A DNA stretch of 35,824 bases from an uncultured Prevotellaceae bacterium (GTDB taxonomy: Bacteria > Bacteroidota > Bacteroidia > Bacteroidales > Bacteroidaceae), in contig CADCDY010000006.1 of NCBI GenBank assembly GCA_902800245.1, positions 1 through 35,824 of the forward strand, written 5' to 3'. The notes beneath the pieces are model-generated. The model was not told the DNA's origin and searched no databases. It saw only the letters and a list, made by a program, of their open reading frames with translations. Shown here piece by piece: positions 9,808 through 34,964 of this stretch; within the stretch, counting starts at the first letter, position 1; every line of letters starts with the position of its first letter. Made by a program: the position numbers and the translations under genes.

Positions 9808-11253
9808 TTATGGCAGGAAATCGGGTGCCAAAGAGAAATGCATTTCCTCGTTCGTTACTGGGTGACGGAACCAGATTTCTGCGGCATGAAGCATCAGATG
9901 TTGGTCTTTTTCGCGGGTACCATAAAGCTCGTCGCCAACAATAGGACGACCCAAACCATCAGGATGGGCACAATGGATGCGCAACTGATGGGTTCGGCCG
10001 GTCTGAGGCCATAATGCCACCAGGCAATCCGACAGGAATTCGTAATCAGTAACTGCGCGCTTGCCATGCTCGGTGTCCACAAGCTGCCGTGGGCGGTTCA
10101 TCGGGTCTGGGCGCAGGGGCAGACTGATGGTGCCACGTTTCTCTAGAATATCTAGATTTTCTAGATTATCTAGAGCATCTAGAGGTTCTAGAACTGCCAG
10201 GTATTTTTTCTTCACCTGATGCTTTACAAACTGCTCCTGTAAATTGCGATAGACCTCCAGCGTTTTCGCCACGATGAGCAGGCCACTAGTAGCCATGTCC
10301 AAGCGGTGGGCAATCATACTACCGGGATAGCGCTGCTGCATAATGGTTTCCACGCTATATTCCTCTACACGCCCCGGCGCAGAGAGCAGGCCGCTGGGTT
10401 TATTGACCACCAGCAGCCATTCATCCTCATAGACAACGGGCAGTTCTTGACGTTCGAAACTCAGCGACTTTGGGTCGGGATCTACGTCGAGCCCTTGCAG
10501 CATCCATGTCAGGACAGGTTTACACTTGCCGCGGCAGGCAGGATAGTAGTTCAGATGGTGGCGAAGCTCCGTCTTCGTCGTCTCGCCCCACCAAAATTCC
10601 GCCATACATAGCGGCTTCAAGCCCTGCTGATAGGCATATTGTAAAAGTTTCGGTGCACAACAGTCACCAGTCCCTCCCGGAGGCAGCGGATATTTACGCA
10701 GTAGCTTCGGACGGTTGTAATATTCCTGCCAGACATCAACGAGGTCCTTCACTTCGCCACAGCCATTCAACAGCCGATACTGGTGGAAGAGCCAAGTCTG
10801 CAGCTCCTGCGAGAGCTGCTTTGAGCTAGAGTCACTAGAACCTCTAGACGCTCTAGATGTTCTAGAAATTCTAGAAATCTCCCTTTCCTGAGTTTTGAAA
10901 TACCCGTCAGGCTGTTGCGCATCATAGACGGGCGGTACAAAATAAGACCAGTCGTTCCGTCCTGCCAGTAGCCCACTGTATGCTGCCAGAAAGCCAAACC
11001 GCCCCCCATATTCCGCGCCTGTCTGTCGAGTGCCCGACGGTTTTGCCGTCGGTCCTTCCATCGGCATCTCCACCACCAGCACCCCGAACATCTTTCCACG
11101 GTCTGCATCTTCCCGAATCTCCTCATGACCGGCAATATACGCCTGCACCGCCTTGGCAGCCAATTGGCATAAGGGGTGCGGCTCATAAGCAAAAGGATAG
11201 GTAAACCGCTCTGGCGGCGCTATCCTGCTCTCCAACGGATGCACATATTCCAT
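9808..11253 (-). CDS. RluA-family RNA pseudouridine synthase with N-terminal extension
   Basis: 481 residues from the ATG at 11253; the longer frame adds residues that do not match the family (expected start is near ESRIAPPERFTYPFAYEPHP). The catalytic domain follows VYEDEWLLVVNKPSGLLSAPGR and has the active-site motif HRLDMATSGLL with the nucleophilic Asp, then QTGRTHQLRIH. It turns uridine into pseudouridine in RNA; the exact site is not predictable. The N-terminal half of about 250 residues is typical of Bacteroidetes RluA relatives. Two segments do not look like normal protein: SRISRTSRASRGSSDSSS in the N-terminal half and LEPLDALDNLENLDILE in the catalytic domain. Both are encoded by TCTAGA nonamer arrays and probably form surface loops. 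Confidence 0.92.
   Translation of the reverse strand: MEYVHPLESRIAPPERFTYPFAYEPHPLCQLAAKAVQAYIAGHEEIREDADRGKMFGVLVVEMPMEGPTAKPSGTRQTGAEYGGRFGFLAAYSGLLAGRNDWSYFVPPVYDAQQPDGYFKTQEREISRISRTSRASRGSSDSSSKQLSQELQTWLFHQYRLLNGCGEVKDLVDVWQEYYNRPKLLRKYPLPPGGTGDCCAPKLLQYAYQQGLKPLCMAEFWWGETTKTELRHHLNYYPACRGKCKPVLTWMLQGLDVDPDPKSLSFERQELPVVYEDEWLLVVNKPSGLLSAPGRVEEYSVETIMQQRYPGSMIAHRLDMATSGLLIVAKTLEVYRNLQEQFVKHQVKKKYLAVLEPLDALDNLENLDILEKRGTISLPLRPDPMNRPRQLVDTEHGKRAVTDYEFLSDCLVALWPQTGRTHQLRIHCAHPDGLGRPIVGDELYGTREKDQHLMLHAAEIWFRHPVTNEEMHFSLAPDFLP
10142..10195. repeat. TCTAGA nonamer array A, 6 units, in the pseudouridine synthase gene
   Basis: Six perfect TCTAGA cores spaced exactly 9 bp apart, each followed by three variable bases. 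In the gene's frame (minus strand) the array reads as L-(D/E)-x triplets. Confidence 0.95.
10825..10878. repeat. TCTAGA nonamer array B, 6 units, in the pseudouridine synthase gene
   Basis: Six units with 9-bp spacing. Four have a perfect TCTAGA core and the two outermost are degraded (GCTAGA, ACTAGA). In the gene's frame it reads S-R-x, a different frame from array A. Confidence 0.93.
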
Positions 11254-11262
11254 ATTCGTCTG

Positions 11263-11270
11263 CGAAGATA
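11263..11270 (-). promoter_or_regulatory. Probable -7 box of the pseudouridine synthase gene
   Basis: On the minus strand, TATCTTCG ends 9 nt before the chosen ATG and resembles TAnnTTTG. I do not see a convincing -33 box, so this is tentative. It supports the short start over the longer frame. Confidence 0.5.
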
Positions 11271-11366
11271 CAGAAAAAAAACAACTCTCCACCTTATCTT
11301 ATAATAAATAAGGTTAAAGTCGCGCAAATTACCGTTTTACAATCGTCTTATTTCAATAATTCTATG

Positions 11367-11374
11367 TACCTTTG
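11367..11374 (+). promoter_or_regulatory. -7 box of the M6 metalloprotease gene
   Basis: TACCTTTG fits the Bacteroidetes -7 box and lies 15 nt before the ATG at 11390. A -33 box is not clear. Placing transcription start near 11378 excludes the TTG start at 11372. Confidence 0.65.
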
Positions 11375-11389
11375 CAGTTCAATTTGATT

Positions 11390-13774
11390 ATGAAGAATAA
11401 ACTATTAATACTGATTCCGATGCTCCTGATGAGCATCATTGTGCTGGCAGTTCCTGCCAAGCGCGGACTGACGAGAACCATTACCCTGAGTGACGGTTCG
11501 ACCATGCAGGCAAAACTGATAGGTGATGAATACGGCCATTTCTGGCTGGCGGAGAACGGAAATGCCTATGTACAGGTTGCCGACCAAGAATATTTTACCA
11601 AGGTTGATGCCGAGGCAGTGAAGCAACAGGCACAGATACGCCGCTCAGCAGCCAATGCCCGCCGTGCTCAGCGGTTACCTGGAGTGAAACAACACGGTCG
11701 TCGTATAGGACAGGTCGGATCTTATTTCGGTGCCAAGAAGGCACTGGTCGTTTTGGTCAATTTCACTGATACCAAATTCAATGCCTCCAACGACAGCGCG
11801 CTCTATGACCGCATCGCTAATGAAAAAGACTTCAAGGAAGGCCGTTTCGTGGGATCGATGTATGATTATTTCTATGCCCAAAGCGAAGGTCAGTTCGAAC
11901 TAACCTTCGACATCATGGGTCCCGTCACTGTATCGAAGAACCACAGCTACTATGGCAGCAATAATCCACAGGGAGATGACAAGCATCCTGGCGAAATGGT
12001 TCACGAGGCCATTACCATGCTGAAAGACAGCATTAACGACTGGAAGCAATACGACTGGGACAACGACGGATTTATCGATCAGGTCTATGTCATCTATGCT
12101 GGTAAGGGCGAAGCCGACGGTGGTGCCAGTAATACTATCTGGCCCCATGCATGGGATTTGGACTCCAGTGGCGCTGGAATGGTCACTGTTGGTGAGGGAC
12201 TGCTTGTAAACACCTATGCCTGCGGCAGTGAGCTGAACGGCAGCAACCAGATAGAAGGCATTGGTACCATGTGTCACGAATTCAGTCACTGTCTGGGTTA
12301 TCCCGACTTTTATGATACTGACTATTCTGGCGGTCAGGGTATGGACGACTGGGACCTGATGAGCGGCGGTTCATACAATGGTGGCGGCTACCGTCCGGCA
12401 GGCTATACCGGTTATGAACGCTGGATGGCTGGATGGAAGACGCCTATAGAATTGGACAAAGGCAAAGTCTCCATCAAAGGTATGAAGGGCCTGCAGGAAG
12501 GAGGCGAGTTCTATGTGATGTATAATGACGGTTGGCGTGACGAATATTTCATGCTGGAAAACCGCACTTTAACAGGTTGGGACGAGAGTCTGCCGGGCGG
12601 CGGACTGCTCATCATTCATGTCGATTACGATGAAATGGTATGGGCTGCTAACCAGCCCAATGACGACCCCCACCACCAGCGCATGACATGGATACCGTCC
12701 GACGGCAGTTACAATTTCCACGGATATGGTGAAAACATATCTCCTACGAATGTCAGCAAAGACGTCTATCCTAATGTCAATAATGGCAACAACGCTTTCG
12801 GTGATATGACGATACCTGCCGCCGAACTATACAACGACAATACGGACGGCAGCAAACTACTACATAAAGGTATCAAAAACATAACCAAACATAACAATGG
12901 TACCATCTCGTTCGACTACATGAATGGTTCAATGGTGAAGGCTCCCGTATTCTCATCCAAAGGCGGTACCTTCCTCGAGCCCATATTGCTGAGCATGACC
13001 TGTGACACAGAAGGTGCCACTATCTACTATACGACAGACGGTTCAATGCCTACGGTGACCAGCAGCATTTATTCTGAGCCGCTGGAAATAGACTGCAGTA
13101 TGATTGTCAAGGCATTTGCAGCTACGACGGAATATGAAAGTTACATGACAGAAGCACTCTTCAACTTCATTACCCTTACTCCCACGGCAGACTCACTGAG
13201 CTATGCATGGAAAGAAGAGTTCGACGGTTATGCTTCAGGGATCCCAGCAGAGGAAGTCGTCAGCGAACAGGCTTTCTATGAGAGCGACGGCGGGCAGTTC
13301 TGTAAAATATACAGAGATAATCTTGCCGGCGGAAAAGTTCCTGAGTTACTGATTCCTCATCAGGGTCGTCCCACCAACCAACTGAATGCAATCATTGCTC
13401 TGGGGATGGTATATGGCGATTTTGAGCTTTCATATAAGAGCAACCATCCGTTGTCTGTCAGTTCGAAAACGGAGGATGTGGTCATCACTGAAGGCGAGGT
13501 TAACGGCAAGAATTATCACTTTACGATAACCGTTCCGGAAGGCATCCACACACTGCAGTTGTCGTTTGTCAACAATAACACACTAAACACCCGCATTGAC
13601 GACATCGAGTTGATGAAGCCAGAAAACTATGGGGAGACCAGCGGCATTTCCGTCTTGTCACAGACAAAGACGCAGTCCAATGATGATGCCTATTACACCA
13701 TCCAGGGAATCCGCGTCACCAATCCCTCTCGCGGCCTATACATCCACCGCGACAAACTCGTCATCTGTAAATAA
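11390..13774 (+). CDS. Secreted M6-family metalloprotease
   Basis: 794 residues with a signal peptide (MKNKLLILIPMLLMSIIVLA). The zinc motif HEFSHCLGYPD has ligands His296 and His300 with catalytic Glu297. Downstream DLMSGGSYNGGG and YERWMAGW are typical of immune-inhibitor-A-like M6 peptidases. Upstream KALVVLVNFTDTKF opens the catalytic domain. After it come a chitobiase/HEX C-terminal-like module (ATIYYTTDGSMPT), a beta-rich domain and a C-terminal tail (YYTIQGIRV, PSRGLYI) closely like the tail of the secreted protein at 4228-9672. It is predicted to be exported and to digest extracellular protein. It stands alone between a promoter and a strong terminator. Confidence 0.92.
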   Translation: MKNKLLILIPMLLMSIIVLAVPAKRGLTRTITLSDGSTMQAKLIGDEYGHFWLAENGNAYVQVADQEYFTKVDAEAVKQQAQIRRSAANARRAQRLPGVKQHGRRIGQVGSYFGAKKALVVLVNFTDTKFNASNDSALYDRIANEKDFKEGRFVGSMYDYFYAQSEGQFELTFDIMGPVTVSKNHSYYGSNNPQGDDKHPGEMVHEAITMLKDSINDWKQYDWDNDGFIDQVYVIYAGKGEADGGASNTIWPHAWDLDSSGAGMVTVGEGLLVNTYACGSELNGSNQIEGIGTMCHEFSHCLGYPDFYDTDYSGGQGMDDWDLMSGGSYNGGGYRPAGYTGYERWMAGWKTPIELDKGKVSIKGMKGLQEGGEFYVMYNDGWRDEYFMLENRTLTGWDESLPGGGLLIIHVDYDEMVWAANQPNDDPHHQRMTWIPSDGSYNFHGYGENISPTNVSKDVYPNVNNGNNAFGDMTIPAAELYNDNTDGSKLLHKGIKNITKHNNGTISFDYMNGSMVKAPVFSSKGGTFLEPILLSMTCDTEGATIYYTTDGSMPTVTSSIYSEPLEIDCSMIVKAFAATTEYESYMTEALFNFITLTPTADSLSYAWKEEFDGYASGIPAEEVVSEQAFYESDGGQFCKIYRDNLAGGKVPELLIPHQGRPTNQLNAIIALGMVYGDFELSYKSNHPLSVSSKTEDVVITEGEVNGKNYHFTITVPEGIHTLQLSFVNNNTLNTRIDDIELMKPENYGETSGISVLSQTKTQSNDDAYYTIQGIRVTNPSRGLYIHRDKLVICK

Positions 13775-13812
13775 TAAGAAGAAGGCTGTCCGAAATGACA
13801 GCCTTCTTCTTA
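13775..13812. terminator. Bidirectional terminator between convergent genes
   Basis: AAGAAGAAGGCTGTC at 13776-13790 and its complement at 13797-13811 form a perfect 15-bp stem, one pair longer with flanking T and A, around a 6-base loop. It sits between the stop of the protease gene (13774) and the stop of the minus-strand gene (13832). The stem ends TTCTTCTT in both directions. Confidence 0.9.
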
Positions 13813-13831
13813 ATGAATTGTTTGATTCTAA

Positions 13832-16800
13832 TTACTTATAGACAGGACGGATCAACATGCCGTAATAACGCCAGCTGCCAATGACAGTAGGTGCCGACGG
13901 ATTGTCGAAGCCCAGCATTGTAGCAAAGTTCTTCAGCTTGTCATCATCACCGATGGCAATAGGAGAACTACTCCAATAGCGACCGCAGTTGTCACTCTTC
14001 GTTGAACTGCCTTCCTTATAGCCTCCGGCAGGGAAGAATAGCGTATTGCCATTAATCTTACTGGTCAGCTTAATACCATCAACACCGCCTTCGGTTGTCC
14101 ACTGATAATCGCACCAATTAAGCAATGTAGCAATCTCACCAGCAGTCGGCATACGCCATTCATGCTCTACACCTTCTGCTTTACCCCAGGTCTGCTTAAC
14201 AACGTCGTTTTCGTCTGGGAATTTATTTGAGGCGAGGAGCTCGTCTTCACTGCTCACACCATTCAAATTATTGTTATAGGAACCTTGGGTATAGGAGTCT
14301 TTCTCTGCCAAATCGCCCCAGGCTAAATAACGGCCATATTCTCCAGTCTTCTTCTTGACGCCATAGTTCCAGCGAGCCCACTTGACACCTTTACCCATAT
14401 CGACGCCTTCCTGAGGAATGATACCGGTAGCATCATTCTGGTCGGAGCCTTCAACGATTTCGTTGGTCAGGTCTTCTGTGGGTTCTGGAGTAGGATCAGG
14501 AGTTACACTAGAGCCATCATCATATACAGGACGTACGGACAAGCCACGGCTCTTGAGCAACTCACCTTGTCTGGTTTCTCTTGCTATTTCATAGTAAATG
14601 CCCTCACTGGCCACACTATCCGTCCATATATAGGCATATTTATTCAAATCTTCTATCGACGAATCATCCTCACCGGTTCTCGCACCTGCGCAAGGAATGA
14701 AAATCTTGTTGCCATTCGAAGCAGTGAATTCCCAACCACTTACAGCACCCTTTGTCGTGAGGGTAGGATTACATTTTTTAATCAGTTCTTCCACCTCAGC
14801 AGGCTTGGGCAGACGCCAGTGGCCACCCAGCTTATTGGTGGCGATATCGTAATTGGGATCGCCGGCAATACCTGTAAACAACTTACCAGGCGCATATTTT
14901 CCTGAACGGACAGAACGTTCCTCTCCAGTGGCATCACCCCAGCCGAAGTATCCACCGGGCTGCGTATCAGATTTGGAACCCAAGTTAAAGTCAGCCCACT
15001 TCACACTCAAGCCCATATTAACGGCATTCGGCTCAACATAAGTAATCTCAGTCGCTGTAGTAAAACTACTTTCTGCTACCAATAATGGCATATCTGCAGG
15101 AGAAGCCTCGGCACGGAAATAATAAGTGGTTGCCGGCTCTAAACCAGTCAAAGGTATAGATTCATTTCGTCCTGTTGTAATCTGTCCTGTTATAGGAGTG
15201 ACGCCACTCAAATCGGCAGTAGGACCACAGAGAACCGAATAATCACACGTTTCATTCACATTACCAGACAACATCAATACCAGCGTGGCCTTATTCGTTC
15301 CAATTCCAGAAGGTGCCACATCCAGTAAAAGTTTCTTTTCAGCAGTTTCAAAGTAGCCAGAATAGGGCTCGGCTTCAACATCAGTATAATTAGCCTTGAT
15401 TCGATAATAATAGCGCGTATTGGGGTCCAGATCGGACAACGAAACTGTCACATACTGGTCAGCATTCGTGGTAAGACCAATACTACCCATCTTACGCTCA
15501 GCATTGCTCAGATCCTCGTTCTTGCTGTAATCAATCACATAATCCACATTTTCAGCAACAGTACCTCTCAGCGTCATCAGAATCTTGGCACTTGTAGCTG
15601 TAATATCCAATTCACTTGCTGAAACAGTCAGTGTTTTGGCAATGGTCTTAAACTCACCTCTGAAAGGTGCAGACTCATAATCACTGTATTTGACGATGAT
15701 ACGGTAATAATATTGTTTACCTGTCTCCAATCCCTCCAGTGTGACATTTACCTCCTTAGTCGATTTATTCAACATGAAACTGCCTTTCTCGACGGATGCT
15801 TCCGTAAGATTCTCGTTCAGACCATAGGTAACCTCATAATCAACATTCTCCTGAGAACTACCGGAAACGGTCATAATCAGTTCCGCAGAATTGGTCGTAA
15901 CCTCAGCTGTTTCAGCCGTTACTTTCAGATTCTTCGAACCAGTGGTAAACGACTCTTCAACTGTAGTCTTTGCACCTCCAGTAGCATATTCGGCCTCTAC
16001 AATGAATTCGTAGAGTTTATTGCTTGCCAAACCATCAATGTCAATTGTATCCTGAACACCGGTTGCGTCAGCCAAATGAACAGTTTTCTTAATCGGTTCA
16101 AAAGCTTCAGTCTTACTGGTTATCGTATATTTGATGTCTTCATCTACTGCATTACCTGTAAACTTCAGCAATAACTCGACAGAGTTAGTGGAAGGAACGG
16201 GAGTCACATCTACTTTCAACTGCTTGGCATCAGTAACAAATGGTATCGTAGAAACTGCACTCTTAATCATCGATCCATCCTTCAACTTGGCAAATGCCTG
16301 ATAATAATAAGGAGTATTGGGAGTCAGACCCGTCAGCTTGACATCCATCAACTTATTGAGTACTATTGGACCAGCACCCGGTGCCGGCTGCGTGTTCGAC
16401 ATATCCTGACTGGTAGAATAATAGATACCAAACTGATCAACCTCTACTTCGTCCGAAGATACAATCGATACAGGAATAGTTGCCTCATACAATCCGACAT
16501 CCTTCGGTGTTCCTGCCTCTATCGTTACAGTCACAAGAGGCTTGCCCCAAATAGGACGAATCATCAGTTTCTCAGTCGTTTCCTGACGCTTCATCTCACC
16601 CTTGGAATCATTGTTTACACGCAAACTCCATGCCATATCTTCGGCATAGGTTGTGGTTGACCAATAGTCGTCGTAGGGCAGTACAATGAACACATCCTCC
16701 TGACCTTTCTTGGCGACTTTGTAACCAATGGCCTTACCGGTTTCGTCCTTGTATTCACTCCAATCACAGGACGAAATAAGTTCCTCGAACTCCTCCTTGG

Positions 16801-17113: not shown

Positions 17114-17628
17114 AATTTCTTATAAATTTTAAATGATTGTTGGCCAACGCGGATAATGTACACGCCCCGAGGAAGTGCATTTAAATGAAAGGTCACCTGA
17201 CGGTCACTACGCTCCATATTCACTGGTGCCATCTTGCCGTCAACACTATAGAGACTGGCAGATGTTCCGTCGCTCAAACCGCTGACGATAACAGTCTGCG
17301 CATCTACGAATTTCAAATCCAAGGCCTTCTTACCTGAACCATTCGTAAGGACATCTATTCCCGTAACAGGTTTTTCACCTTCTTTCAGATCGAATTTGTC
17401 GATCTTCGAAAACTCAATGGTAACAGGCTGATCCTGCGTCTTCACCGTAGCAATCAGACTGCCTTCTGCATGGTTAAAAGAAAGGACCGGTTCGTCAGTC
17501 AGCCAACAGCTGAAAACTGCATCGGTTTTCCCTTTCTCGAAAATCAACAGCTCATAATCTGCAAAAACTGCTAAAGGCAAATTCAGCAGTAAAAGCATAA
17601 AAAGTAGTAATTTCAAGTGACTTTTCAT
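17110..17628 (-). CDS. Small secreted protein with C-terminal sorting-type domain
   Basis: 172 residues with a signal peptide (MKSHLKLLLFMLLLLNLPLAVFA). The middle (YELLIFEKGKTDAVFSC, IEFSKIDKFDLKEG) is a short beta-rich stretch often found in Bacteroidales secreted proteins. The C terminus (SASLYSVDGK, ALPRGVYIIRVGQQSFKIYKK) matches the Por/type IX secretion sorting domain type A pattern. The function is unknown. Its TGA stop overlaps the start of the FISUMP-like gene in ATGA, so the two products are probably made together. Confidence 0.8.
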   Translation of the reverse strand: MKSHLKLLLFMLLLLNLPLAVFADYELLIFEKGKTDAVFSCWLTDEPVLSFNHAEGSLIATVKTQDQPVTIEFSKIDKFDLKEGEKPVTGIDVLTNGSGKKALDLKFVDAQTVIVSGLSDGTSASLYSVDGKMAPVNMERSDRQVTFHLNALPRGVYIIRVGQQSFKIYKKL

Positions 17629-17648
17629 AAGTTCATAATATTAATGTA

Positions 17649-18098: not shown

Positions 18099-18141
18099 AC
18101 GATTTTCTATATATCTTTTTCCTTAAGAACTAAACGATGAA

Positions 18142-18636: not shown

Positions 18637-18659
18637 CAACAAATATGATTATTTAAAAA

Positions 18660-27470: not shown

Positions 27471-27474
27471 GGCG

Positions 27475-28092
27475 TTACAATTGTCCAGCCTCAACCATGA
27501 GGACAACACGTTCTGTCAAACGATCGATACCCTCAGGATCGTACTCTTTCTTCAACGAAGCACCAAAGGCCCATGCAAAGGCCTGATAGAAACCAGCGCG
27601 TACTGGCCCGAGGAAGGCCTGAATCAGTTCATAACTCGAAGAATGGCTCTCGCGATAGATGAGTTTGATCAGCAGTTTCCCTTGTGAATAAGTCAGTTTC
27701 TTCATACGGGGCTTATATTCCTTCATGATACTTTTTTCGACTCGTTTCATGTGTTCCGCCTTTGCTTTCTTATCAGGCAGGGTTTCCAGATATTCTGCCG
27801 TTTCCATCATGATCATATTAGCCTCCTTGGCAATGGGAAGCACCAACTTGACATTCTTCACCAGACGCATGTAGGCGCCTTCCTGTTTCTTATTCTCAAA
27901 GGTGACAGGCGGAAAGACATAGACATTGTTCATCTCCATATACTGGATGCTGTCACCCCCTTCATAGACCTTGCCAACCTTCACGGTAGGGACGAAAGTC
28001 GGACTATCCATATCGACCTTCTCCGCTTTGTTTTTCTGTGCCATCACAGCAACAGACACCAACAATAATCCTATCAGCAAGACCTTTCTCAT
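27475..28092 (-). CDS. DUF4294 domain protein
   Basis: 205 residues with a signal peptide (MRKVLLIGLLLVSVAVMAQ). The mature part (GDSIQYMEMNNVYVFPP, then RLVKNVKLVLPIAKEA, LTYSQGKLLIKLIYRES, FLGPVRAGFYQAFAWAFG) matches the DUF4294 family of Bacteroidetes. The function is unknown. The gap to the next gene is 4 bp and to the previous one 2 bp, so it is inside the operon. Confidence 0.85.
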   Translation of the reverse strand: MRKVLLIGLLLVSVAVMAQKNKAEKVDMDSPTFVPTVKVGKVYEGGDSIQYMEMNNVYVFPPVTFENKKQEGAYMRLVKNVKLVLPIAKEANMIMMETAEYLETLPDKKAKAEHMKRVEKSIMKEYKPRMKKLTYSQGKLLIKLIYRESHSSSYELIQAFLGPVRAGFYQAFAWAFGASLKKEYDPEGIDRLTERVVLMVEAGQL

Positions 28093-28094
28093 TA

Positions 28095-29087
28095 CTATTC
28101 AGAATAGATGAGTTGCACCAACGTTTGTCCTACAGCCTGCAGGGTATTACGGTCGATGTGCTGCATATCGTCAGAGACGGTGTGCCACGTAGGACCGAAG
28201 GAGCTCTGTTCGCAGTCAGGATAGTGATTGATAATGTCGATACAGGGAATACCCGCCTTTTCATTCACAGGCACATGATCATCAGTGACGCCACCGCTAT
28301 CCTTATAAGGGAAGATGCTGCCGTAACCAGCAGTATTAGCGGCCTGCCAGACGCGCTCAACAATATTGCGGGCATAGTGCATAGAGTAGTATTCACGATA
28401 GAACTTGGCACCCTGACCACCAACCATATCAAGCAGAATAGCGTATTGGTAGGTTTTGGATTTTGCCTCGTCGCTAACAGCCCAATACTGGGCACCAAGG
28501 GCCCAAGAATCGCCATTGACGTCTTCTTCCCATTGGGGAATCCCCCAGTCTTCCGCGTCGAAACAAATGAAATCGACTGCCAGACGGACAGAATCATTTT
28601 GCTGTAGCATTCGAGCCAATTCCAACATAATAGCGACACCCGAGGCGCCATCGTTAGCCGCCATTACGGGCTTGCGCCAATTCGCTTCGTCAGGGTCGTT
28701 GTCAGCCCAGGGGCGGCTGTCCCAGTGAGCACAGATGAAGATGCGGGGAATAGGTTGCGACTGAGTCGCAACAGACCGTACAGGAGCGGTCGCGATGATG
28801 TTAGTACTCTTAAGGATAGTGCCGTCGTAGCCTTTCAGGTCAGCCTTCTGAAGGGTTACCTGATAGCCAAACTGCTCGAATTTCTGCTGAATCCATTGGG
28901 CGCATTGTTCGTGGGCGGTACTGTTCATCGTACGAGGTCCGAAAGCACACTGTGCTGCACAAAACTCGTAGGCAGAGTCTGCATTGAAGGTCAGGGCCAC
29001 CGCAGACTGGGTCGTCTGGCTCTTCTTGGTGGTGCCACAGGCTACCAACAGACTCACAGCCAATAACATATAGATGATTCTTTTCAT
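28095..29087 (-). CDS. M28-family glutaminyl-peptide cyclotransferase-like lipoprotein
   Basis: 330 residues with a lipoprotein signal peptide ending in LLVACG. The zinc-hydrolase core has CAHWDSRPWADNDPD, MAANDGASGVAIMLELAR, FICFDAEDWG and, near the end, TDDHVP and WHTVSDDMQHIDRNTLQAVGQT. This strongly resembles the animal-type glutaminyl cyclases of Porphyromonas and Prevotella, which form N-terminal pyroglutamate on exported proteins that begin with Gln; an aminopeptidase role is the alternative. Copy 3 of the in-frame palindrome encodes SVATQSQP just before the core, at a loop. It has a 1-bp gap to the fusion hydrolase gene upstream. Confidence 0.87.
   Translation of the reverse strand: MKRIIYMLLAVSLLVACGTTKKSQTTQSAVALTFNADSAYEFCAAQCAFGPRTMNSTAHEQCAQWIQQKFEQFGYQVTLQKADLKGYDGTILKSTNIIATAPVRSVATQSQPIPRIFICAHWDSRPWADNDPDEANWRKPVMAANDGASGVAIMLELARMLQQNDSVRLAVDFICFDAEDWGIPQWEEDVNGDSWALGAQYWAVSDEAKSKTYQYAILLDMVGGQGAKFYREYYSMHYARNIVERVWQAANTAGYGSIFPYKDSGGVTDDHVPVNEKAGIPCIDIINHYPDCEQSSFGPTWHTVSDDMQHIDRNTLQAVGQTLVQLIYSE
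28754..28772. repeat. In-frame palindrome, SVAxxSQP family, copy 3
   Basis: GTTGCGACT, G, AGTCGCAAC, with a 9-bp stem around one base. Flanks TAGG and AGACCG. It reads RSVATQSQPIP in the cyclase-like gene. Confidence 0.9.
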
Positions 29088-29088
29088 A

Positions 29089-30849
29089 CTATTCTCTTAC
29101 ACTCTGTACTTGTGTCATAACACGCAGGAAGTTGCCTCCCCAAATCTTCTCGATGTCCTGTTCACTATAGCCACGAGCCAGCAATAAACGGGTAAAGTTC
29201 AGTAATTCCGACGAGTTCGCCATTCCACGTACACCGCCATCGCCATCGAAATCAGTACCGATACCTACGTAATCGATTCCCATCACCTCAATGGCATGAT
29301 CCAAATGGCGCAGGGCATCAAGGACAGTAGCTTCGCCATCCTTCACGAGGAAACCATTATACATGGTAATCTGCATCACCCCACCCTTTGCAGCTAAAGC
29401 GCGCATCTGGTCGTCAGTCAGATTACGCGGATGGTCGCAAAGTGCATGACAACTGCTATGACTGCACACAATGGGCTGACTACTCATCTCCAACGCATCA
29501 TAAAAACTCTTCTCGCCAGCATGACTGAGGTCAACGAGAATGCCCAAACGGTTCATCTCACGAACCACCTGCTTTCCAAAAGCACTGATACCGTTATGCG
29601 TATGGTTACCACGAGCAGAATCACAGATATCGTTGTCGCCATTATGGCATAGCGTCATATAAACGATACCACGCTGAGCAAAATGCTGCAGACGATCCAA
29701 ATGACCATCGAGTGCAAGACCATTCTCAATGCCTAGCATGATACTTTTGCGTCCCTGTTGCTTATTGGCATAAAGGTCGGCAGGCGTGCGCGCAATACTT
29801 AAGTACTGCTTGTTTTGCTCGACGATAGCCTCAATCTTGTCAAAGATAAGGTCGGCATATTCCGTAGGACCATTGACGTCGAAATCGACCTTCGACGAGA
29901 ACGTCTCATCCTGCTGAGGTTGAGGAAGATAGCACACCATGATGGTCGCATCCTGATGGCCCTCCGACATCTTATGGAGGTCAACGAGGATGCGTGGGTC
30001 GCGACTGCCGAAATCAACGCCCTGAGGGAAGAACATCGGCGTATCGCAATGGGTATCGAGCGTGAGGATGCGCTGATGGAGGTCGCAGGTACGACGATAG
30101 TCAGCAGCCTGACGGACGAGCCAAGAGAAGATGGGGGAACCATCTTCCGCGGACATACACTCCGGATGCCACTGAACACCGAGAATGCTTTTATACTCAC
30201 GGCTCTCTATCGCCTCGACGATGCCATCAGCAGAACGGGCAGTCACTCGGAAGCGCTCACCAGAATCAGAAACAGCCTGATGATGGAAGGAGTTAACGAA
30301 TAATTTCTCCCTATTATATATATTAAATAAGGTAGAGGCAGGTTCGATGGTAACGCTATGAGTTGGTTCCGAACGTTCGGCATCCTGCGAATGGCGAATC
30401 TGCGCAACGTCGCTGATATCCTGCTGAACCTTACCACCAAGGGCCATTGCCAACGTCTGGATGCCTCGACAGATGCCCAGCATAGGAATCTGGCGATTAT
30501 AGGCCAGCTGGGTAATCAGCAATTCAGGCAGGTCACGTTCCGCATTGATACCACCCAGACTGGGAGAAGGCTCCTCGCCAGCATAGAGCGGATTAAAATC
30601 TGCACCACCCGTCAACAACAGGCCATCGATATGCTCAAGCGTATTGATGAGCACATCGGTATCGGCAATAGGCGGAATGATGACAGGCACGCCGCCAGCA
30701 CGCCAAATAGACTTGTAGTAGCCCTCGTTAAGCTTACAAGCCAATTCGCCATAGTTACCCGTCAAACCAATCACGGGTTTCCTCTTGGCTTCCGGAAAAG
30801 AACCATAGGCTGTCGTCAGATACGACTGCCAGTCAAAGCGATTGTCCAT
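29089..30849 (-). CDS. Fusion of a C26 glutamine-amidotransferase-like hydrolase and an M19 dipeptidase
   Basis: 586 residues with no signal peptide, so cytoplasmic. Residues 1-250 are a peptidase C26 domain (gamma-glutamyl-gamma-aminobutyrate hydrolase type): LLLTGGADFNP at 78-88, nucleophile Cys127 in GICRGIQ, and the His228/Glu230 pair in QWHPE. Residues 260-586 are a renal-dipeptidase domain: DTHCD at 265-269, IENG with Glu375, LSHAG with His443, CSHSS with His464, HPRN with Arg475 and GTDFDG with Asp533. Both active sites look intact. The first domain would release gamma-linked glutamate and the second would split the remaining dipeptide, as in glutathione-type peptides; this pairing is inferred. 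It follows an Lrp regulator with a 6-bp gap. Confidence 0.93.
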   Translation of the reverse strand: MDNRFDWQSYLTTAYGSFPEAKRKPVIGLTGNYGELACKLNEGYYKSIWRAGGVPVIIPPIADTDVLINTLEHIDGLLLTGGADFNPLYAGEEPSPSLGGINAERDLPELLITQLAYNRQIPMLGICRGIQTLAMALGGKVQQDISDVAQIRHSQDAERSEPTHSVTIEPASTLFNIYNREKLFVNSFHHQAVSDSGERFRVTARSADGIVEAIESREYKSILGVQWHPECMSAEDGSPIFSWLVRQAADYRRTCDLHQRILTLDTHCDTPMFFPQGVDFGSRDPRILVDLHKMSEGHQDATIMVCYLPQPQQDETFSSKVDFDVNGPTEYADLIFDKIEAIVEQNKQYLSIARTPADLYANKQQGRKSIMLGIENGLALDGHLDRLQHFAQRGIVYMTLCHNGDNDICDSARGNHTHNGISAFGKQVVREMNRLGILVDLSHAGEKSFYDALEMSSQPIVCSHSSCHALCDHPRNLTDDQMRALAAKGGVMQITMYNGFLVKDGEATVLDALRHLDHAIEVMGIDYVGIGTDFDGDGGVRGMANSSELLNFTRLLLARGYSEQDIEKIWGGNFLRVMTQVQSVRE

Positions 30850-30855
30850 CGGTTG

Positions 30856-31320
30856 TTATTCGTCTAAGTTAACAGGAATATCACGCTTAATACTCTGTTC
30901 CAGAGAAATCAGCGTCTCAGTAGCTACCACGCCAGGAATATCCTGCAAGCGACCATTCAGCAGATGCATAAGCTGCTCATTGTCACGAGCATAGAGCTTC
31001 ACCATCATGGTGTACGGGCCTGTCGTGAAGTGACACTCTACCACCTCAGGAATGTGCTGGAGGCGTTCGACGACTGTCTTATACATAGAGCCACGCTCCA
31101 ACGTGATACCTACATAGGTACAAGTGGAGTAACCCAGGCTCTTGGGATTGATATCAAAACCACTCCCCATGATGACTTCACCCTCAATGAGGTGCTGAAC
31201 ACGCTGGTGAATGGCAGCACGCGACACGTTACACTCTGCGGCTACATCCTTGAACGGGATGCGCGCATTCTTCGACAGGATACTGAGTATCTTTTTATCA
31301 AGATTGTCAATCTTATCCAT
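30856..31320 (-). CDS. Lrp/AsnC-family transcriptional regulator
   Basis: 154 residues. An N-terminal winged helix-turn-helix (DNLDKKILSILSKNARIPFKDVAAECNVSRAAIHQRVQHLIEGEVI) is followed by the RAM/AsnC ligand domain (STCTYVGITLERGSMY, HFTTGPYTMMVKLYA, IPGVVATETLISLEQSIK). Such regulators sense amino acids. It is the first gene of the run down to 25374, so it likely controls the peptide-processing genes that follow; self-regulation is common in the family. Confidence 0.93.
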   Translation of the reverse strand: MDKIDNLDKKILSILSKNARIPFKDVAAECNVSRAAIHQRVQHLIEGEVIMGSGFDINPKSLGYSTCTYVGITLERGSMYKTVVERLQHIPEVVECHFTTGPYTMMVKLYARDNEQLMHLLNGRLQDIPGVVATETLISLEQSIKRDIPVNLDE

Positions 31321-31352
31321 TTCTTTTTCGTTGTTAGTTTACAAATTGTAAG

Positions 31353-31384
31353 CAAAAGTACGCATTTTTGTTGAAACTGGCAAC
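31353..31384 (-). promoter_or_regulatory. Promoter of the Lrp operon
   Basis: On the minus strand, GTTG (31384-31381), a 20-bp spacer and TACTTTTG (31360-31353). It reads into the ATG at 31320 and is the only visible promoter for the five genes that follow. Confidence 0.72.
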
Positions 31385-31426
31385 ATTTTGCTACTAAAAT
31401 ATGTAAAAATCGCGTATTTTGCCTAC

Positions 31427-32053
31427 TTATCGCTTCCGAATGAGCGTCAAGCCATCCCTTAAAGGCAGGATGACACGTTCGACACGCTGGTCGCGAAGCA
31501 CATAGTCATTGAAGGTCTCAATACCCTTTGTCTGGGGGTCACGATCGTAGGCAGCATCAACCACATGGCCGTCCCACAACGTGTTGTCAGCCAGGATAAA
31601 ACCACCTGGACGCAACACGGAAAGCGCCATTTCGTAGGTCTCGCGATAGGTGCGTTTGTCGCCATCAATAAAAGCCATATCGAACGTCACACCTAAACGT
31701 GGAGCCTCCGTCACAGCATCACCAATGATAAAACGGATTTTGTCAGCAACAGGAGAGCCCTCAATCCAAGGACGCGTGAAATCCTCCTGTTCATCGTTGA
31801 TTTCAAAGGTATAAATCAAACCTCCTTCCTCCAGTCCTTCTGCCATACAAATGGCCGAATAGCCGCTGAAAGTGCCTACTTCGAGGATATTTTTGGGGCG
31901 AATCATCGTCACCAGCATCTTCAGCAAGCGCCCCTGCAAATGACCAGAAGCCATCCGCCCATGAAGCATGTGGATATTCGTAGCACGCCAAAGCCGATAG
32001 AGGTAATCGGGCTCTGGGTCGATGTGCTGAAGGATATAGTCGTCGAGGGTCAT
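31427..32053 (-). CDS. SAM-dependent O-methyltransferase
   Basis: 208 residues. It belongs to the class I O-methyltransferase family (catechol O-methyltransferase-like). Motif I is ILEVGTFSGYSAICMAEGL, the acidic strand end is YTFEIN, the metal-site region is MAFIDGDKRTYRETYE and RPGGFILADNTLWDGHV follows. It transfers methyl from SAM to an unknown hydroxyl acceptor. Its ATG overlaps the aroQ stop by 4 bp. Confidence 0.9.
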   Translation of the reverse strand: MTLDDYILQHIDPEPDYLYRLWRATNIHMLHGRMASGHLQGRLLKMLVTMIRPKNILEVGTFSGYSAICMAEGLEEGGLIYTFEINDEQEDFTRPWIEGSPVADKIRFIIGDAVTEAPRLGVTFDMAFIDGDKRTYRETYEMALSVLRPGGFILADNTLWDGHVVDAAYDRDPQTKGIETFNDYVLRDQRVERVILPLRDGLTLIRKR

Positions 32054-32466
32054 ACCAGCAAAGCCTCAATGGCCAGACGGTAAGAGTCGAGACCAAAGCC
32101 ACAGATGACACCCTTGCAAGCAGCAGAGATGAACGAATGATGGCGGAATTCCTCGCGCTGATGGACGTTGGAGATGTGTACTTCTATGACAGGACATTTC
32201 AACGAACGGATGCAGTCGTGAAGCGCCACAGAAGTGTGGGTATAGGCACCGGCGTTGAGCACGATTCCGTCGAAAGAAAAACCTACCTCCTGCATTTTGT
32301 TGATCAATTCGCCCTCAACGTTGCTCTGATAGTAAGCTATCTCGACGTCAGGATACTTAGCCTGCAACTGAGGCAGATACTGCTCGAACGACGAAGAACC
32401 ATAGATGCCTGGTTCGCGAACACCCAACAGGTTCAAATTAGGACCATTAATGATTTGAATTTTCAT
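32050..32466 (-). CDS. aroQ: Type II 3-dehydroquinate dehydratase
   Basis: 138 residues, close to the usual 140-150. It dehydrates 3-dehydroquinate to 3-dehydroshikimate in the shikimate pathway. The start IINGPNLNLLGVREPGIYG includes the catalytic Tyr, NAGAYTHTSVALHD carries the base-stabilising residues, and EVHISNVHQREEFRHHS the catalytic His and substrate-binding region. It is divergent from xerD with the two promoters facing each other. Confidence 0.95.
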   Translation of the reverse strand: MKIQIINGPNLNLLGVREPGIYGSSSFEQYLPQLQAKYPDVEIAYYQSNVEGELINKMQEVGFSFDGIVLNAGAYTHTSVALHDCIRSLKCPVIEVHISNVHQREEFRHHSFISAACKGVICGFGLDSYRLAIEALLV

Positions 32467-32491
32467 ATTTCAAAACTTTTTTGTACCTTTG
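32461..32491 (+). promoter_or_regulatory. Promoter of xerD
   Basis: TTTC (32461-32464), a 19-bp spacer and TACCTTTG (32484-32491). The -33 box lies at the aroQ start codon region. Confidence 0.7.
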
Positions 32492-32497
32492 TGGCGG

Positions 32498-32529
32498 CAA
32501 AGATACGAATTTAAATGGAAACTGACAAG
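32498..32529 (-). promoter_or_regulatory. Promoter of aroQ
   Basis: On the minus strand, CTTG (32529-32526), a 20-bp spacer and TATCTTTG (32505-32498). The -33 box lies inside the xerD coding region. The two -7 boxes face each other 6 bp apart. Confidence 0.7.
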
Positions 32530-33447
32530 AAAACCAAGGCAAATAATGTTGTAAAGGCCTACAAAAGGTACCTGAAACTGCAACGAGGGTATTCTGCAAA
32601 TACCCTTGATGCCTATTTGCGCGACTTAGAGAAGCTGCTGAACTACCTGAAAGAAGAAAAGAAACGCGTTCAAGACGTGCAACTTTCAGACCTACAGCAT
32701 TTTGCCGCATCTTTGCACGACATTGGCATCCATCCTCGTTCACAATGCCGAATCCTGAGCGGAGTACGTGCTTTCTTCCGTTTCCTGCAATTGGACGGCT
32801 ATCGCGACGACGATCCCACAGAACTGCTGGAATCACCCGTCTTAGGCGATCATCTGCCTGAAGTCCTGTCAACTAGCGAAATTGACCTGTTAGAACAATC
32901 TATCGACCTGTCAAAGTGGGAAGGCCAACGCAATTGCGCTATCATCGAAGTACTGTTCAGCTGTGGATTGCGCGTCAGCGAACTGGTGAACCTGAAACTC
33001 AGCAACCTTTATTTGGAAGAACAATACATCCGTGTCTTTGGCAAGGGTTCTAAGGAACGCTTGGTGCCCATCTCGCCCAAAGCCATCAAAGAGCTGAACT
33101 ACTGGTTTATGAACCGTAACCTCATGAAAATCAAGTCCGGAGAGGAAGATTACGTATTCCTCAATCGTCGCGGAGCACACCTCACGCGTACCATGATACT
33201 TATTATGATTAAGCAACAGGCCGTTGAGGCAGGCATCACCAAAACCATTTCGCCCCACACGCTTCGACACTCCTTTGCCACAGCACTCTTGGAAGGTGGA
33301 GCCGACCTGCGCGTCATTCAGGCAATGCTGGGTCACGAATCGATAGGAACGACGGAAATATACACCCATATCGACATGAGTACCCTGCGCCAACAGATAC
33401 TGGAACACCATCCTCGCAACATGAAAACGGCAAAAGAAGAAAAATAA
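32515..33447 (+). CDS. xerD: Tyrosine recombinase XerD
   Basis: 310 residues. The N-terminal SAM-like DNA-binding domain (LKLQRGYSANTLDAYLRDL) precedes the catalytic domain with Arg153 (CGLRVSELVNL), Lys177 (FGKGSKERLVP), His248 and Arg251 (SPHTLRHSFATALLEGGADLRVIQ), His274 (LGHESIGTTEIYTH) and the nucleophile Tyr283. It resolves chromosome dimers at dif with a partner recombinase. The housekeeping context (aroQ, murF, recO) argues against an integrase of a mobile element. Confidence 0.93.
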   Translation: METDKKTKANNVVKAYKRYLKLQRGYSANTLDAYLRDLEKLLNYLKEEKKRVQDVQLSDLQHFAASLHDIGIHPRSQCRILSGVRAFFRFLQLDGYRDDDPTELLESPVLGDHLPEVLSTSEIDLLEQSIDLSKWEGQRNCAIIEVLFSCGLRVSELVNLKLSNLYLEEQYIRVFGKGSKERLVPISPKAIKELNYWFMNRNLMKIKSGEEDYVFLNRRGAHLTRTMILIMIKQQAVEAGITKTISPHTLRHSFATALLEGGADLRVIQAMLGHESIGTTEIYTHIDMSTLRQQILEHHPRNMKTAKEEK

Positions 33448-33458
33448 ATGAAGAAATA

Positions 33459-33490
33459 TTTCCGTAGTCCGTTTTTTCTTTGTACCTTCG
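33459..33490 (+). promoter_or_regulatory. Promoter of murF
   Basis: TTTC (33459-33462), a 20-bp spacer and TACCTTCG (33483-33490). Only CAGC separates the -7 box from the ATG at 33495, so the mRNA is predicted to be leaderless. Confidence 0.75.
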
Positions 33491-33494
33491 CAGC

Positions 33495-34964
33495 ATGAAA
33501 ATAGAAGAACTATACCAGCTATACCAGCAACATCCGTGTATCACGACGGATTCGCGCAACTGCCCAGAGGGAAGTATCTTTCTGGCCTTGAAGGGTGAGT
33601 CGTTCAATGGCAACCAGTTTGCAGTGTCAGCCCTCGAAAAGGGCTGTAGCTACGCGATTATCGACGAGCCGACGGTTCTAGAAAATCTAGAACATTTAGA
33701 TCATCTAGACAATTTAGGGCCTCTAGATGCTTTAAAGCAACGTCTCATCCTCGTCGACAACTGCCTGCAAACCTATAAGGACCTTGCTCGCGAGCACCGT
33801 CGCCAGTTCGACATCCCTGTCATTGGCATTACTGGCACCAACGGCAAGACGACGACGAAGGAACTGATTCGTGCTGTGTTGGCAGAGTGCTATAACGTCA
33901 TGGCGACGGAGGGCAATTTCAACAACGACGTTGGCGTTCCCAAGACGCTGTTCGGCCTCAACGACAGCCACGATATTGCTGTTGTCGAGATGGGTGCTTC
34001 GCATCCTGGCGACATCAAGACACTCGTAGAAACTGCCGAGCCCAACTGCGGACTGATTACCAACGTAGGTCGTGCCCATCTGCAGGGCTTTGGCTCGTTC
34101 GAGGGCGTTTGCAAGACGAAAGGCGAGCTCTACGATTTCCTGCTGGCACACAACTGTCCGCTCTTTGTCAACCGCGACAACGAACACCTCATCGAAATGA
34201 TAGCCAACAGCCAAAAGCTAATAGCCAAAAGCCAAAAGCCAAAAGCTAATAGCCAACAGCCCGACATCTATTATTATGGTCAGAGCGACGCTGAGGATAT
34301 CCTCATTCGTGGCGAGGTCATCTCGTGCGCACCATTCCTCAAGTTCCGCTGGCGCGAGCAGGACGCTGATGCTGGTTATACCAGCGACTGGATGGAGGTG
34401 CAGACGCACCTCATTGGCGCCTACAATCTGGATAACATGCTGGCAGCCATCACGATAGGCTACGTCAACAACATTCCCTTCGAGCAGATTAATCACGCCC
34501 TCGAAAGCTACGTGCCTACCAACAACCGCTCACAATTGACGGAAACGGAGAAGAATCACCTCATCGTTGACGCCTATAACGCCAACCCCACTTCGATGAA
34601 GGCCGCATTAGACAATTTCCGACTGATGGAGGTATCGCCCAAAATGGCTATTCTGGGTATGATGGGTGAACTGGGCGACGTCTCGCAAGAGGAGCACCAG
34701 AAGATTATCGCCCTGCTCGAAGAAGCCCATTTCGACGAGGTTTGGCTCGTGGGCGCCGAGTTTGAAAAAGCTAACAGCCAAAAGCTAACAGCAATTCGCA
34801 ACGCCACACTCTGCTCTGCAGAGAATGGCCAAAAGCCATATCGCACCTTCGCCAATGTCGACGAGGTGAAGCAGGCTATCGCCCAAGAGCAGCCCGTTGG
34901 TCGTTACATCCTCATCAAGGGTTCGAACAGCACTCATCTATACGAACTACCTACCCTCCTTTAA
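33495..34964 (+). CDS. murF: UDP-N-acetylmuramoyl-tripeptide--D-alanyl-D-alanine ligase
   Basis: 489 residues from the ATG at 33495; the TTG at 33480 is upstream of the -7 box and is rejected. It adds D-Ala-D-Ala to UDP-MurNAc-tripeptide in peptidoglycan synthesis. Visible are the N-terminal GCSYAIIDEP domain, the ATP loop GITGTNGKTTTKE at 111-123, VVEMGASHPGDI, ITNVGRAHLQGFGS, and the C-terminal DAYNANPTSMKAAL and LGMMGELG. It is longer than typical MurF (about 430-450). The extra length is largely three repeat-coded segments: LENLEHLDHLDNLGPLDAL, IANSQKLIAKSQKPKANSQ and KANSQKLTA. Confidence 0.95.
   Translation: MKIEELYQLYQQHPCITTDSRNCPEGSIFLALKGESFNGNQFAVSALEKGCSYAIIDEPTVLENLEHLDHLDNLGPLDALKQRLILVDNCLQTYKDLAREHRRQFDIPVIGITGTNGKTTTKELIRAVLAECYNVMATEGNFNNDVGVPKTLFGLNDSHDIAVVEMGASHPGDIKTLVETAEPNCGLITNVGRAHLQGFGSFEGVCKTKGELYDFLLAHNCPLFVNRDNEHLIEMIANSQKLIAKSQKPKANSQQPDIYYYGQSDAEDILIRGEVISCAPFLKFRWREQDADAGYTSDWMEVQTHLIGAYNLDNMLAAITIGYVNNIPFEQINHALESYVPTNNRSQLTETEKNHLIVDAYNANPTSMKAALDNFRLMEVSPKMAILGMMGELGDVSQEEHQKIIALLEEAHFDEVWLVGAEFEKANSQKLTAIRNATLCSAENGQKPYRTFANVDEVKQAIAQEQPVGRYILIKGSNSTHLYELPTLL
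33677..33730. repeat. TCTAGA nonamer array C, 6 units, in murF
   Basis: Six units at exact 9-bp spacing with the core TCTAGA, of which two are TTTAG variants. It is read as L-(E/D)-x in the gene's frame. Confidence 0.93.
34202..34257. repeat. Tandem heptamer array in murF, 8 units
   Basis: AGCCAAC, AGCCAAA, AGCTAAT, AGCCAAA three times, AGCTAAT and AGCCAAC follow without gaps. The consensus is AGCYAAN. Since 7 is not a multiple of 3, three units make one 7-residue period (ANSQKLI, AKSQKPK). Confidence 0.95.
34769..34789. repeat. Second heptamer array in murF, 3 units
   Basis: AGCTAAC, AGCCAAA and AGCTAAC have the same heptamer consensus as the array at 34202-34257 and are 511 bp away in the same gene. 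It encodes KANSQKLTA. Confidence 0.92.

Follow-up and report, generated by a model that had tools for sequence, protein, structure and literature searches.

Rows of CTAG phased at 9 bp in Prevotellaceae genes and a candidate partner protein

Repeat arrays in the window

The window (the whole stretch of DNA analysed, 35,824 nt from an uncultured Prevotellaceae bacterium) contains three arrays of a 9-bp repeat located in two genes. An ORF on the minus strand (9808..11292) with the PseudoU_synth_2 domain (PF00849), an RluA-type pseudouridine synthase gene, hosts arrays 1 and 2. Array 1 (10142..10195) consists of six exact TCTAGANNN units; read on the minus strand, they encode L-(D/E)-x and fall in a variable loop of the protein. 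Array 2 (10825..10878) consists of six in-register NCTAGANNN units that encode S-R-x, likewise on the minus strand, and fall in a variable linker; four of the units are exact TCTAGA, preceded by GCTAGA and ACTAGA. Array 3 (33677..33730), read as L-(D/E)-x, has four exact TCTAGA units along with TTTAGA and TTTAGG, all six in register. It lies in an ORF on the plus strand (33480..34964) with domains Mur_ligase, Mur_ligase_M and Mur_ligase_C, which we interpret as murF. The same gene has a heptad repeat of the AGCCAAA type (34202..34261, plus strand) that served as an internal control.

The original prediction described six units per array at exact spacing. The register and the positions hold, while the numbers of exact TCTAGA cores are six, four and four; the predicted reading of one DNA unit in two frames (LDx in arrays 1 and 3, SRx in array 2) was confirmed. 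A three-unit pattern with up to two mismatches had 11 matches in the window and none in 100 dinucleotide shuffles.

Distribution of the arrays and the repeat unit

The window's three arrays are part of a set of tens in the genome: the exact three-unit pattern has 34 matches and the two-unit pattern 67 (overlapping matches counted), with no matches to the reversed pattern used as control for either. The distance between successive TCTAGA, counted in the window and in loci chosen because they have the pattern, is 9 bp in 566 cases and 18 bp in 42; no other distance within 45 bp is seen more than three times. Among tetramers, CTAG forms 214 arrays with 9-bp spacing vs two for the next tetramer (most of the loci having been selected for CTAG). 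The repeat unit proper is CTAG at a period of 9 bp; TCTAGA, proposed originally as the unit, is common to both frames in the window but is merely one form, with outer bases that depend on the genome.

Single mismatches in the core fall on the outer positions in 163 of 216 cases. Whole-genome counts of four-unit TCTAGA vs four-unit CTAG matches were 146/189 in genome G009 and 18/46 in G000; they were 0/158, 0/69, 0/65, 0/61 and 0/53 in G131, G094, G047, G074 and G010, respectively. We rely on these counts instead of the 73% share of tCTAGa in G000, which is ascertained. One orthologous locus has units of the TCTAGA type in G000 and G249 and of the ACTAGT type in G081. Two observations count against the recognition reading set out below: two sites in a single gene of G220 (locus L185) differ in type, one having ACTAGT-type units and the other TCTAGA, and no covariation of the outer bases was detected within a unit or between neighbouring units.

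A scan across the genus, proposed along with the original prediction, found four in-register CTAG at 9-bp spacing in 73 of 150 genomes (at 12-bp spacing in one of 150). Only one of 246 other genomes of the phylum had such a match. The arrays are numerous; they sit at intergenic sites and also inside housekeeping genes that have no relation to each other, where both readable frames are used. Cultured carriers include Prevotella sp. tc2-28, Prevotellaceae MN60, Prevotellamassilia timonensis and P. nigrescens. A literature search found no published description of such CTAG-9 arrays.

Also counting against recognition, about half of the genus sample has no arrays, and genomes with arrays carry other degenerate short repeats, some of 7 and 8 bp, in stretches from contigs known to hold arrays. 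A link to the replication origin was considered and dropped, the genomes being too few; all ten forward four-unit matches of G084 (five loci) lie off the dnaA contig, and the G010 four-unit matches, among those listed, lie on a contig without dnaA. A viral origin was rejected as well: in 80 viral loci examined out of at least 119 stretches, the CTAG-9 arrays are mostly tripeptide-coding repeats, with 81 of 93 located in ORFs of at least 100 codons and 13 of 93 having four or more distinct spacers.

Conservation of the core and drift of the spacers

We made 38 pairwise comparisons of loci among three closely related species, with lineages shared between comparisons. Divergence was 0.01–0.04 in the core and 0.18–0.38 in the spacers (0.21–0.30 overall), and the spacer changes were mostly amino-acid-changing; divergence at fourfold sites was 0.171, 0.208 and 0.195. 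Silent core sites were changed in one of 64 cases (T3 of SRx), four of 106 (A4 of LDx) and three of 106 (T1 of LDx). Realignment at the base level agreed (core 0.013–0.024, spacer 0.16–0.43, near flanks 0.09–0.14). Between G000 and G249, ∼70 core changes would be expected at the fourfold rate and 11 of 408 were observed. The 13 loci had 13 unit gaps between them; turnover of units at this pace would apparently not suffice to remove core mutations. Intergenic arrays, with six comparisons only, count against this pattern, T3 being changed in three of 30 cases.

Spacers of orthologous arrays are inherited, and the number of units differs between species. Array 3 persists in sister species, whereas the murF heptad repeat is shortened or replaced. 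Presence at orthologous sites is ascertained for most stretches of G249 and G293, which were fetched because they bear arrays; still, all three arrays of the window are present on the G293 contig C1, which was taken whole and is thus free of array-based selection.

Since silent core sites are nearly frozen and spacers drift at about the fourfold rate or faster, the core is held by constraint on the DNA itself. Upkeep of the arrays at the DNA level is well supported, and the claim that the element in common is DNA, not peptide, stands: the silent core is frozen, coding-changing spacers drift, and the arrays lie in two frames, in unrelated genes and between genes. Identical peptides with different codons, which had been named as the sign of protein-level selection, were not observed: codons are retained in the two closest RluA orthologues, and more distant ones mostly have other peptides at the corresponding loops.

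A candidate partner protein

The candidate partner is a four-helix-bundle 'suffix' protein with domains TIGR04258 and TIGR02436. A CTAG run overlaps its ORF or is located within 68 bp in seven of seven homologues examined. Five of the seven gene loci had been fetched for array content, which weakens the association, although only 19% of bases in such loci are within 600 bp of an array. Six of the seven have strict 9-bp runs; the homologue at L233 has seven CTAGs at 9–10 bp steps and no strict 9-bp run of three. The P. nigrescens homologue was found by protein search alone, and the run beside it is one of three arrays in the 250 kb sampled of the replicon. TIGR04258 scores (63.0, 63.8, 70.9 and 67.9 bits in four of the seven homologues) are above the NCBI cut-off of 40. 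Most arrays have no candidate gene alongside, and a search of 349 kb of the window's genome did not recover the gene.

The candidate shares the domain of the S23 family (TIGR02436), to which the solved structures Xcc0516 and BT_0352 belong; unlike them, it has the extra TIGR04258 suffix domain and a long C-terminal helix. Foldseek E-values of the candidate model against the two solved folds are weak (0.03–0.1), with probability up to 1.00 and TM-score by target up to 0.81. These solved relatives have no assigned function, and we know of no DNA binding by the four-helix-bundle fold.

Comparison with known repeats and operators

As far as the available parts of the reports describe them, simple sequence and heptamer repeats of Xanthomonas and Nostoc (PMC4692102) and cyanobacterial STRR (PMC2670836) resemble the arrays in having short head-to-tail units at many loci, a variable number of units and a lineage-specific unit. 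The same portions of these reports present near-perfect iterations over-represented between genes (PMC4692102, PMC2670836). The CTAG arrays do have a head-to-tail unit within 1–9 nt; however, CTAG alone is fixed in each 9-bp period, the remaining 5 bp vary freely and the silent core is frozen inside genes. The iteration is far from near-perfect, as adjacent spacers are identical in 110 of 829 pairs. REP elements, in the part of the source available, are palindromes of 20–40 bp tagged with GTAG or CGTC at one end and, like the arrays, are dispersed genome-wide, some inside ORFs of unrelated proteins (PMC3733652). The unit of the arrays, CTAG plus five free bases, is not a tagged palindrome of that length; the arrays are 4-bp palindromes phased at 9 bp, without stem covariation. 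Rickettsia palindromic elements are DNA repeats translated in frame within protein genes as longer single insertions; the arrays are likewise translated inside genes, but as phased rows of short units. Ribbon-helix-helix repressors such as MetJ or omega bind cooperatively to short boxes at regular phase. The phase of the arrays is similarly regular, but there are tens of them per genome, many in coding sequence, with a partner protein that is a candidate only.

Possible explanations of the arrays

The reading that we put first, at about even confidence, is that the arrays are DNA-level rows of phased CTAG kept through recognition by a trans-acting factor, the TIGR04258 protein being the leading candidate. 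Rows with a 9-bp phase and a preference for certain outer bases (TCTAGA in the window's genome) would lengthen and shorten as single units or groups of units are duplicated locally, and would occupy protein-tolerated variable loops or intergenic sites. The factor would recognize double-stranded DNA and read several phased CTAG sites; the protein with TIGR04258 and TIGR02436 may be this reader, as its gene position suggests. Recurrence of one gene family beside arrays raises the weight of both the recognition and the cassette readings and lowers that of the other rivals except peptide selection.

A functionless minisatellite, in which the CTAG core seeds realignment at replication, only units with intact cores expand and spacers are passengers, we regard as unlikely. 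Traces of duplication do exist: spacer identity within an array is 0.13–0.24 at lags 1–6 vs 0.033 for random pairs, and 135 identical spacers at lag 2 exceed the maximum (129) of 1000 within-array shuffles, with no excess at lag 1 (110 of 829, shuffle mean 130). The original prediction argued against slippage from the variable bases; the spacers are indeed varied, but identity four to seven times above random pairs indicates that local duplication builds the arrays. Slippage also fits the variation of unit number among species and the 7- and 8-bp degenerate repeats of some carriers. On the other hand, the 13 unit gaps seem too few for ∼59 missing core changes, the heptad repeat in the very gene of array 3 turns over wholesale among the compared species, and both the dominance of CTAG at 9 bp (in loci largely CTAG-selected) and the neighbouring candidate gene are left unexplained. 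Correction of hairpins or quasi-palindromes, where neighbouring cores would pair as a stem with a triloop repaired by template switching, draws on the possible folding of adjacent cores into a 6-bp stem and a 3-nt loop and on the palindromes TCTAGA and ACTAGT. The model was rejected, and we hold it very improbable, as stem positions of neighbouring units do not covary (32/287 = 0.111 vs 0.107 as the mean of shuffles); at distances of two and three units, values for the inner pair (0.132 and 0.144) slightly exceed the means (0.105 and 0.100) without reaching the maximum of 500 shuffles, those for the outer pair lie at or below the shuffle mean, and spacer complementarity is inside the shuffle range at lags 1–4. 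Selection of LDx or SRx peptides as loop linkers agrees with the open frames of genic arrays and is hardly credible given frozen silent core sites, free spacers, two different peptides and intergenic arrays; amino-acid selection with silent drift, as in tripeptide repeats, is not what the arrays display.

Spread or construction by a mobile element (REP/RAYT, MITE, target-site duplications or a cassette around the four-helix-bundle gene) seems to us slightly less probable than the minisatellite. At loci L056 and L086 arrays flank the four-helix gene on both sides and its stop codon falls in a CTAG; protein identity to the L136 homologue (68% and 63%, the L086 record being titled Kiritimatiellae) suggests transfer or mis-binning. 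Arrays of G010 lie within intergenic composites, several surrounded by inverted heptad arms, and other species have REP-like hairpins at the corresponding RluA loop. However, the 24 arrays of the window's genome have no common flanks beyond two 14-base matches, spacer pairs are shared between loci at chance level (three of 276 locus pairs, shuffled mean 2.87), and orthologous spacers are inherited. Among viral contigs and phages the candidate gene has no homologue; plasmid records yielded one, on a replicon that looks like a second chromosome. A signal of CTAG restriction-modification or methylation, which would be trans recognition of a special kind with an enzyme as the reader, is improbable. 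A CTAG methylase is proposed for Haloferax in the available part of one report (PMC2841640), and solitary CTAG is absent from sampled stretches of G225 (0 vs 82 expected) and G084 (0 vs 85), where every CTAG is in an array; yet solitary CTAG is equally depleted in array-free genomes. A tie between arrays and CTAG avoidance, promising in nine genomes, failed with 17 array-bearing vs 12 array-free genomes (p = 0.48). Between a building process and DNA binding, both raised by the original prediction, the evidence leans towards upkeep by recognition.

Implications

If the arrays are kept by recognition, a broader and rather doubtful extension is that Bacteroidales possess an undescribed system of reading the chromosome, common to rumen Verrucomicrobiota-type MAGs, in which the suffix protein would assemble on CTAG phased at 9 bp and mark its own gene with an array; sites would be planted in essential genes, and base preference would co-evolve with the arrays of each genome. 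CTAG, a word avoided by many of these genomes, is kept in phased rows inside essential genes. Silent sites more constrained than amino-acid-changing ones mean a DNA-level code that overrides the protein code, present in roughly every second genome of a large sample of the genus; the cultured carriers and the candidate protein make the question directly testable.

The three arrays and their genome

Recheck of the window upheld both the places and the 9-bp register claimed for three arrays, with array 1 (10142–10195) and array 2 (10825–10878) in a minus-strand gene for an RluA-type pseudouridine synthase and array 3 (33677–33730) in murF. The original count of six TCTAGA units per array was right for array 1 (six exact units); arrays 2 and 3 have four exact units each, their non-exact units being single- or double-base variants of TCTAGA. 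A three-unit pattern with up to two mismatches had 11 matches in the window versus none in 100 shuffles. The whole genome (G000; 3.48 Mb, 204 contigs) has 34 exact three-unit and 67 exact two-unit matches; the pattern read backwards, used as a control, had none.

Among the domains of array-hosting proteins in G000 are PseudoU_synth_2, Mur ligase, PCRF (release factor), class I tRNA synthetase, S-methyl_trans, DHQ synthase, Fer4, HHH and DbpA. One of the ten host proteins examined had no match in Pfam and is read as a Kdo transferase; host gene names such as ValS, RF2 and MetH are our reading.

Constraint on the DNA core

Each unit consists of a six-base core and three spacer bases (n7–n9) and, within genes, is read as LDx or SRx, depending on frame. 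Fourfold divergence from G000 is 0.171 (68 genes) for G249 and 0.208 (56 genes) for G293, the nearest sampled species, and 0.195 (42 genes) between these two. In orthologous arrays divergence was 0.025–0.035 in the core and 0.17–0.32 in the spacer (0.18–0.38 per spacer position). Few differences were seen at the silent core sites T3 of SRx arrays (1 of 64) and A4 of LDx arrays (4 of 106), or at T1, a codon-third position of LDx arrays (3 of 106). Clearly amino-acid-changing spacer sites differed at rates of 0.200 (n8) and 0.176 (n9) in LDx arrays and 0.264 (n7) and 0.377 (n8) in SRx arrays. Base-by-base realignment gave 0.013–0.024 for the core, 0.09–0.14 for near flanks and 0.16–0.43 for the spacer; six comparisons of intergenic arrays gave 0–0.10 at core positions and 0.25–0.29 in spacers. 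Silent core sites hardly differ while amino-acid-changing spacer sites do, which bears out the claim that the shared thing is the DNA: what is kept is the DNA core, not the peptide.

Among 1,219 units of 195 distinct arrays, 163 of the 216 single-base core variants fell at outer positions 1 and 6 and 53 in the inner CTAG. The outer bases vary by genome. Whole-genome counts of four-unit TCTAGA and four-unit CTAG matches were 146 and 189 in G009, 18 and 46 in G000, 0 and 158 in G131, and 0 and 61 in G074. In G081, 14 of the 25 matches listed (of 26) have aCTAGt in interior units. A single orthologous locus has TCTAGA-type units in G000 and G249 and ACTAGT-type units in G081; one gene of G220 carries both types.

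Distribution among genomes

Of 150 genomes sampled from the genus, 73 contain four CTAGs at 9-bp spacing (27 of the 68 high-quality ones), against 4 for the reversed word and 1 for CTAG at 12-bp spacing; of 398 genomes searched for four exact TCTAGA units, 70 have them. Of 201 genomes of the family, 50 carry such CTAG arrays, representing 10 of 30 genera; in the phylum sample, one of 246 genomes besides the window's own had them, with a single match. Arrays of G349, which belongs to the window's genus, lie at the positions seen in Prevotella sp. tc2-28, on which basis the genus is taken to be Prevotella. Three Prevotella-type isolates had 21, 27 and 65 four-unit matches. Five genomes with loci titled Victivallales, Kiritimatiellae or Lentisphaeria had 262, 51, 73, 24 and 133 (reversed control 7 in the third), where binning errors are possible, as they are for a MAG titled Proteobacteria with one match and one in the control.

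All ten forward matches in G084 lie on a 708-kb contig (C2) without dnaA, and the matches listed for G010 lie on contig C3, also without dnaA.

Many genomes of the genus show strong depletion of solitary CTAG. A link between this depletion and the arrays was rejected, since genomes with and without arrays are depleted alike (p = 0.48). GATC (3 in 50 kb) and GGCC are also nearly absent in G084 (loci L336–L340), which suggests that this genome strongly avoids several tetramers.

Placement and repeat behaviour

Of the arrays in GTDB loci with four or more exact units, 118 distinct ones were placed. An open frame of 100 codons is missing in 47, and 22 lie well within ORFs (16 read as LDx, 6 as SRx); placement is unclear for 33, and the remaining 16 are too close to the locus end. 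Both RluA sites are hypervariable across the 30 loci compared; other species have different inserts there, among them repeats of 7 bp, an AGTCCG repeat of 10 bp, nonamers (RGTAGGNNN and CCTACNNNN) and REP-like hairpins. The hairpins at these loops (CCTCCCC..GGGGAGG; L188, L199, L205, L206) are in frame. No covariation was found at stem positions of the units. Sister species have either shorter forms of the heptad repeats of murF (window 34202–34261 and 34766–34792), the gene that also hosts array 3, or other sequence in their place: one repeat spans 60 bp in G000 and 18 bp in G293, and G249 and G081 have other sequence there.

Repeat load varies between genomes. The 215 kb of G000 contigs already known to contain arrays hold 28 degenerate arrays, six of 9-bp period and all of these TCTAGA-type; G081 has 20 in 160 kb, and G024 and G250, with 100 kb examined in each, have none.

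Several other repeats were observed. A degenerate 8-bp repeat at window 796–837 (AATAACGN / CGGAATCA type) is retained in G293 with few changes, and similar ATAACGNN arrays occur at L226:5629 and L139:7020; 8-bp degenerate repeats are possibly a second phased family. A 21-bp repeat at window 2910–2984 recurs at L125:7220; in G249 and G293 unrelated repeat sequence stands at the window site. Relatives of the array whose core is TCCGGA (9-bp spacing) or CCTAGG (10-bp spacing) adjoin TCTAGA arrays (L095:709, L100:2150). On contig C3 of G010 (L325–L335), intergenic composites have inverted heptad arms (GAGAGTT / AACTCTC) flanking CTAG arrays; several end in GCCCGTC on one side, and they are dense at 1.59–1.71 Mb in the sampled stretches.

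A candidate partner protein

A cluster of genes near arrays led to a protein of ~225–260 aa with a TIGR02436 four-helix-bundle domain and a TIGR04258 suffix domain. Homologues were found in six of 356 non-viral loci and once in a plasmid collection, on a 568-kb second replicon of P. nigrescens that carries both the gene and arrays; viral contigs and phages yielded none at the limits used, nor was the gene found in the 349 kb examined of the window's genome. All seven homologues have a CTAG run overlapping the ORF or at most 68 bp away, five of the seven loci having been fetched for arrays, with 19% of bases there within 600 bp of one; the P. nigrescens homologue was found via the protein alone, and L233 is a stretch chosen without regard to the gene. 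The run lies upstream in L136 (48 bp) and L133 (41 bp), downstream in L049 (41 bp) and P. nigrescens (47 bp), and on both sides in L056 (68 bp upstream) and L086 (20 bp upstream), in each case with the other run across the stop codon. In L233 seven CTAGs in 9–10-bp steps cross the 3′ end, and no three in a row keep a strict 9-bp spacing. The 8.7 kb around the P. nigrescens gene contain only four CTAGs, all within the adjoining run, and 250 kb of the replicon contain 25, of which 13 are inside three arrays.

The predicted structure is all-helical (pLDDT 81.9, pTM 0.68; six sequences) and weakly resembles S23-type bundles of unknown function; a search of solved structures by sequence gave no match. 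The solved fold closest to the model of L136:4466–5152 is Xcc0516 of Xanthomonas campestris. X. campestris has heptamer repeats across its genome (PMC4692102).

Explanations for the arrays

In the PMC collection searched, which lacks most subscription papers, no title or abstract opening dealt with arrays of CTAG or TCTAGA in this group of bacteria; related papers are PMC4692102, PMC3733652, PMC2841640, PMC4060949 and PMC2670836.

The arrays are still shaped by local duplication: spacer identity inside them at lag 1 (0.133) and lag 2 (0.213) exceeds that of random pairs (0.033). Slippage without function, one chief rival, we consider unlikely. The other, a mobile cassette, seems to us quite improbable: flanks of the 24 G000 arrays compared have only two 14-base matches in common, and spacer pairs common to different arrays among these 24 show no excess over chance.

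A CTAG-reading protein may be the cause of the constraint; we give this an even chance, up from slightly below even because the candidate gene was found. The arrays themselves are almost certainly DNA-level elements under constraint.
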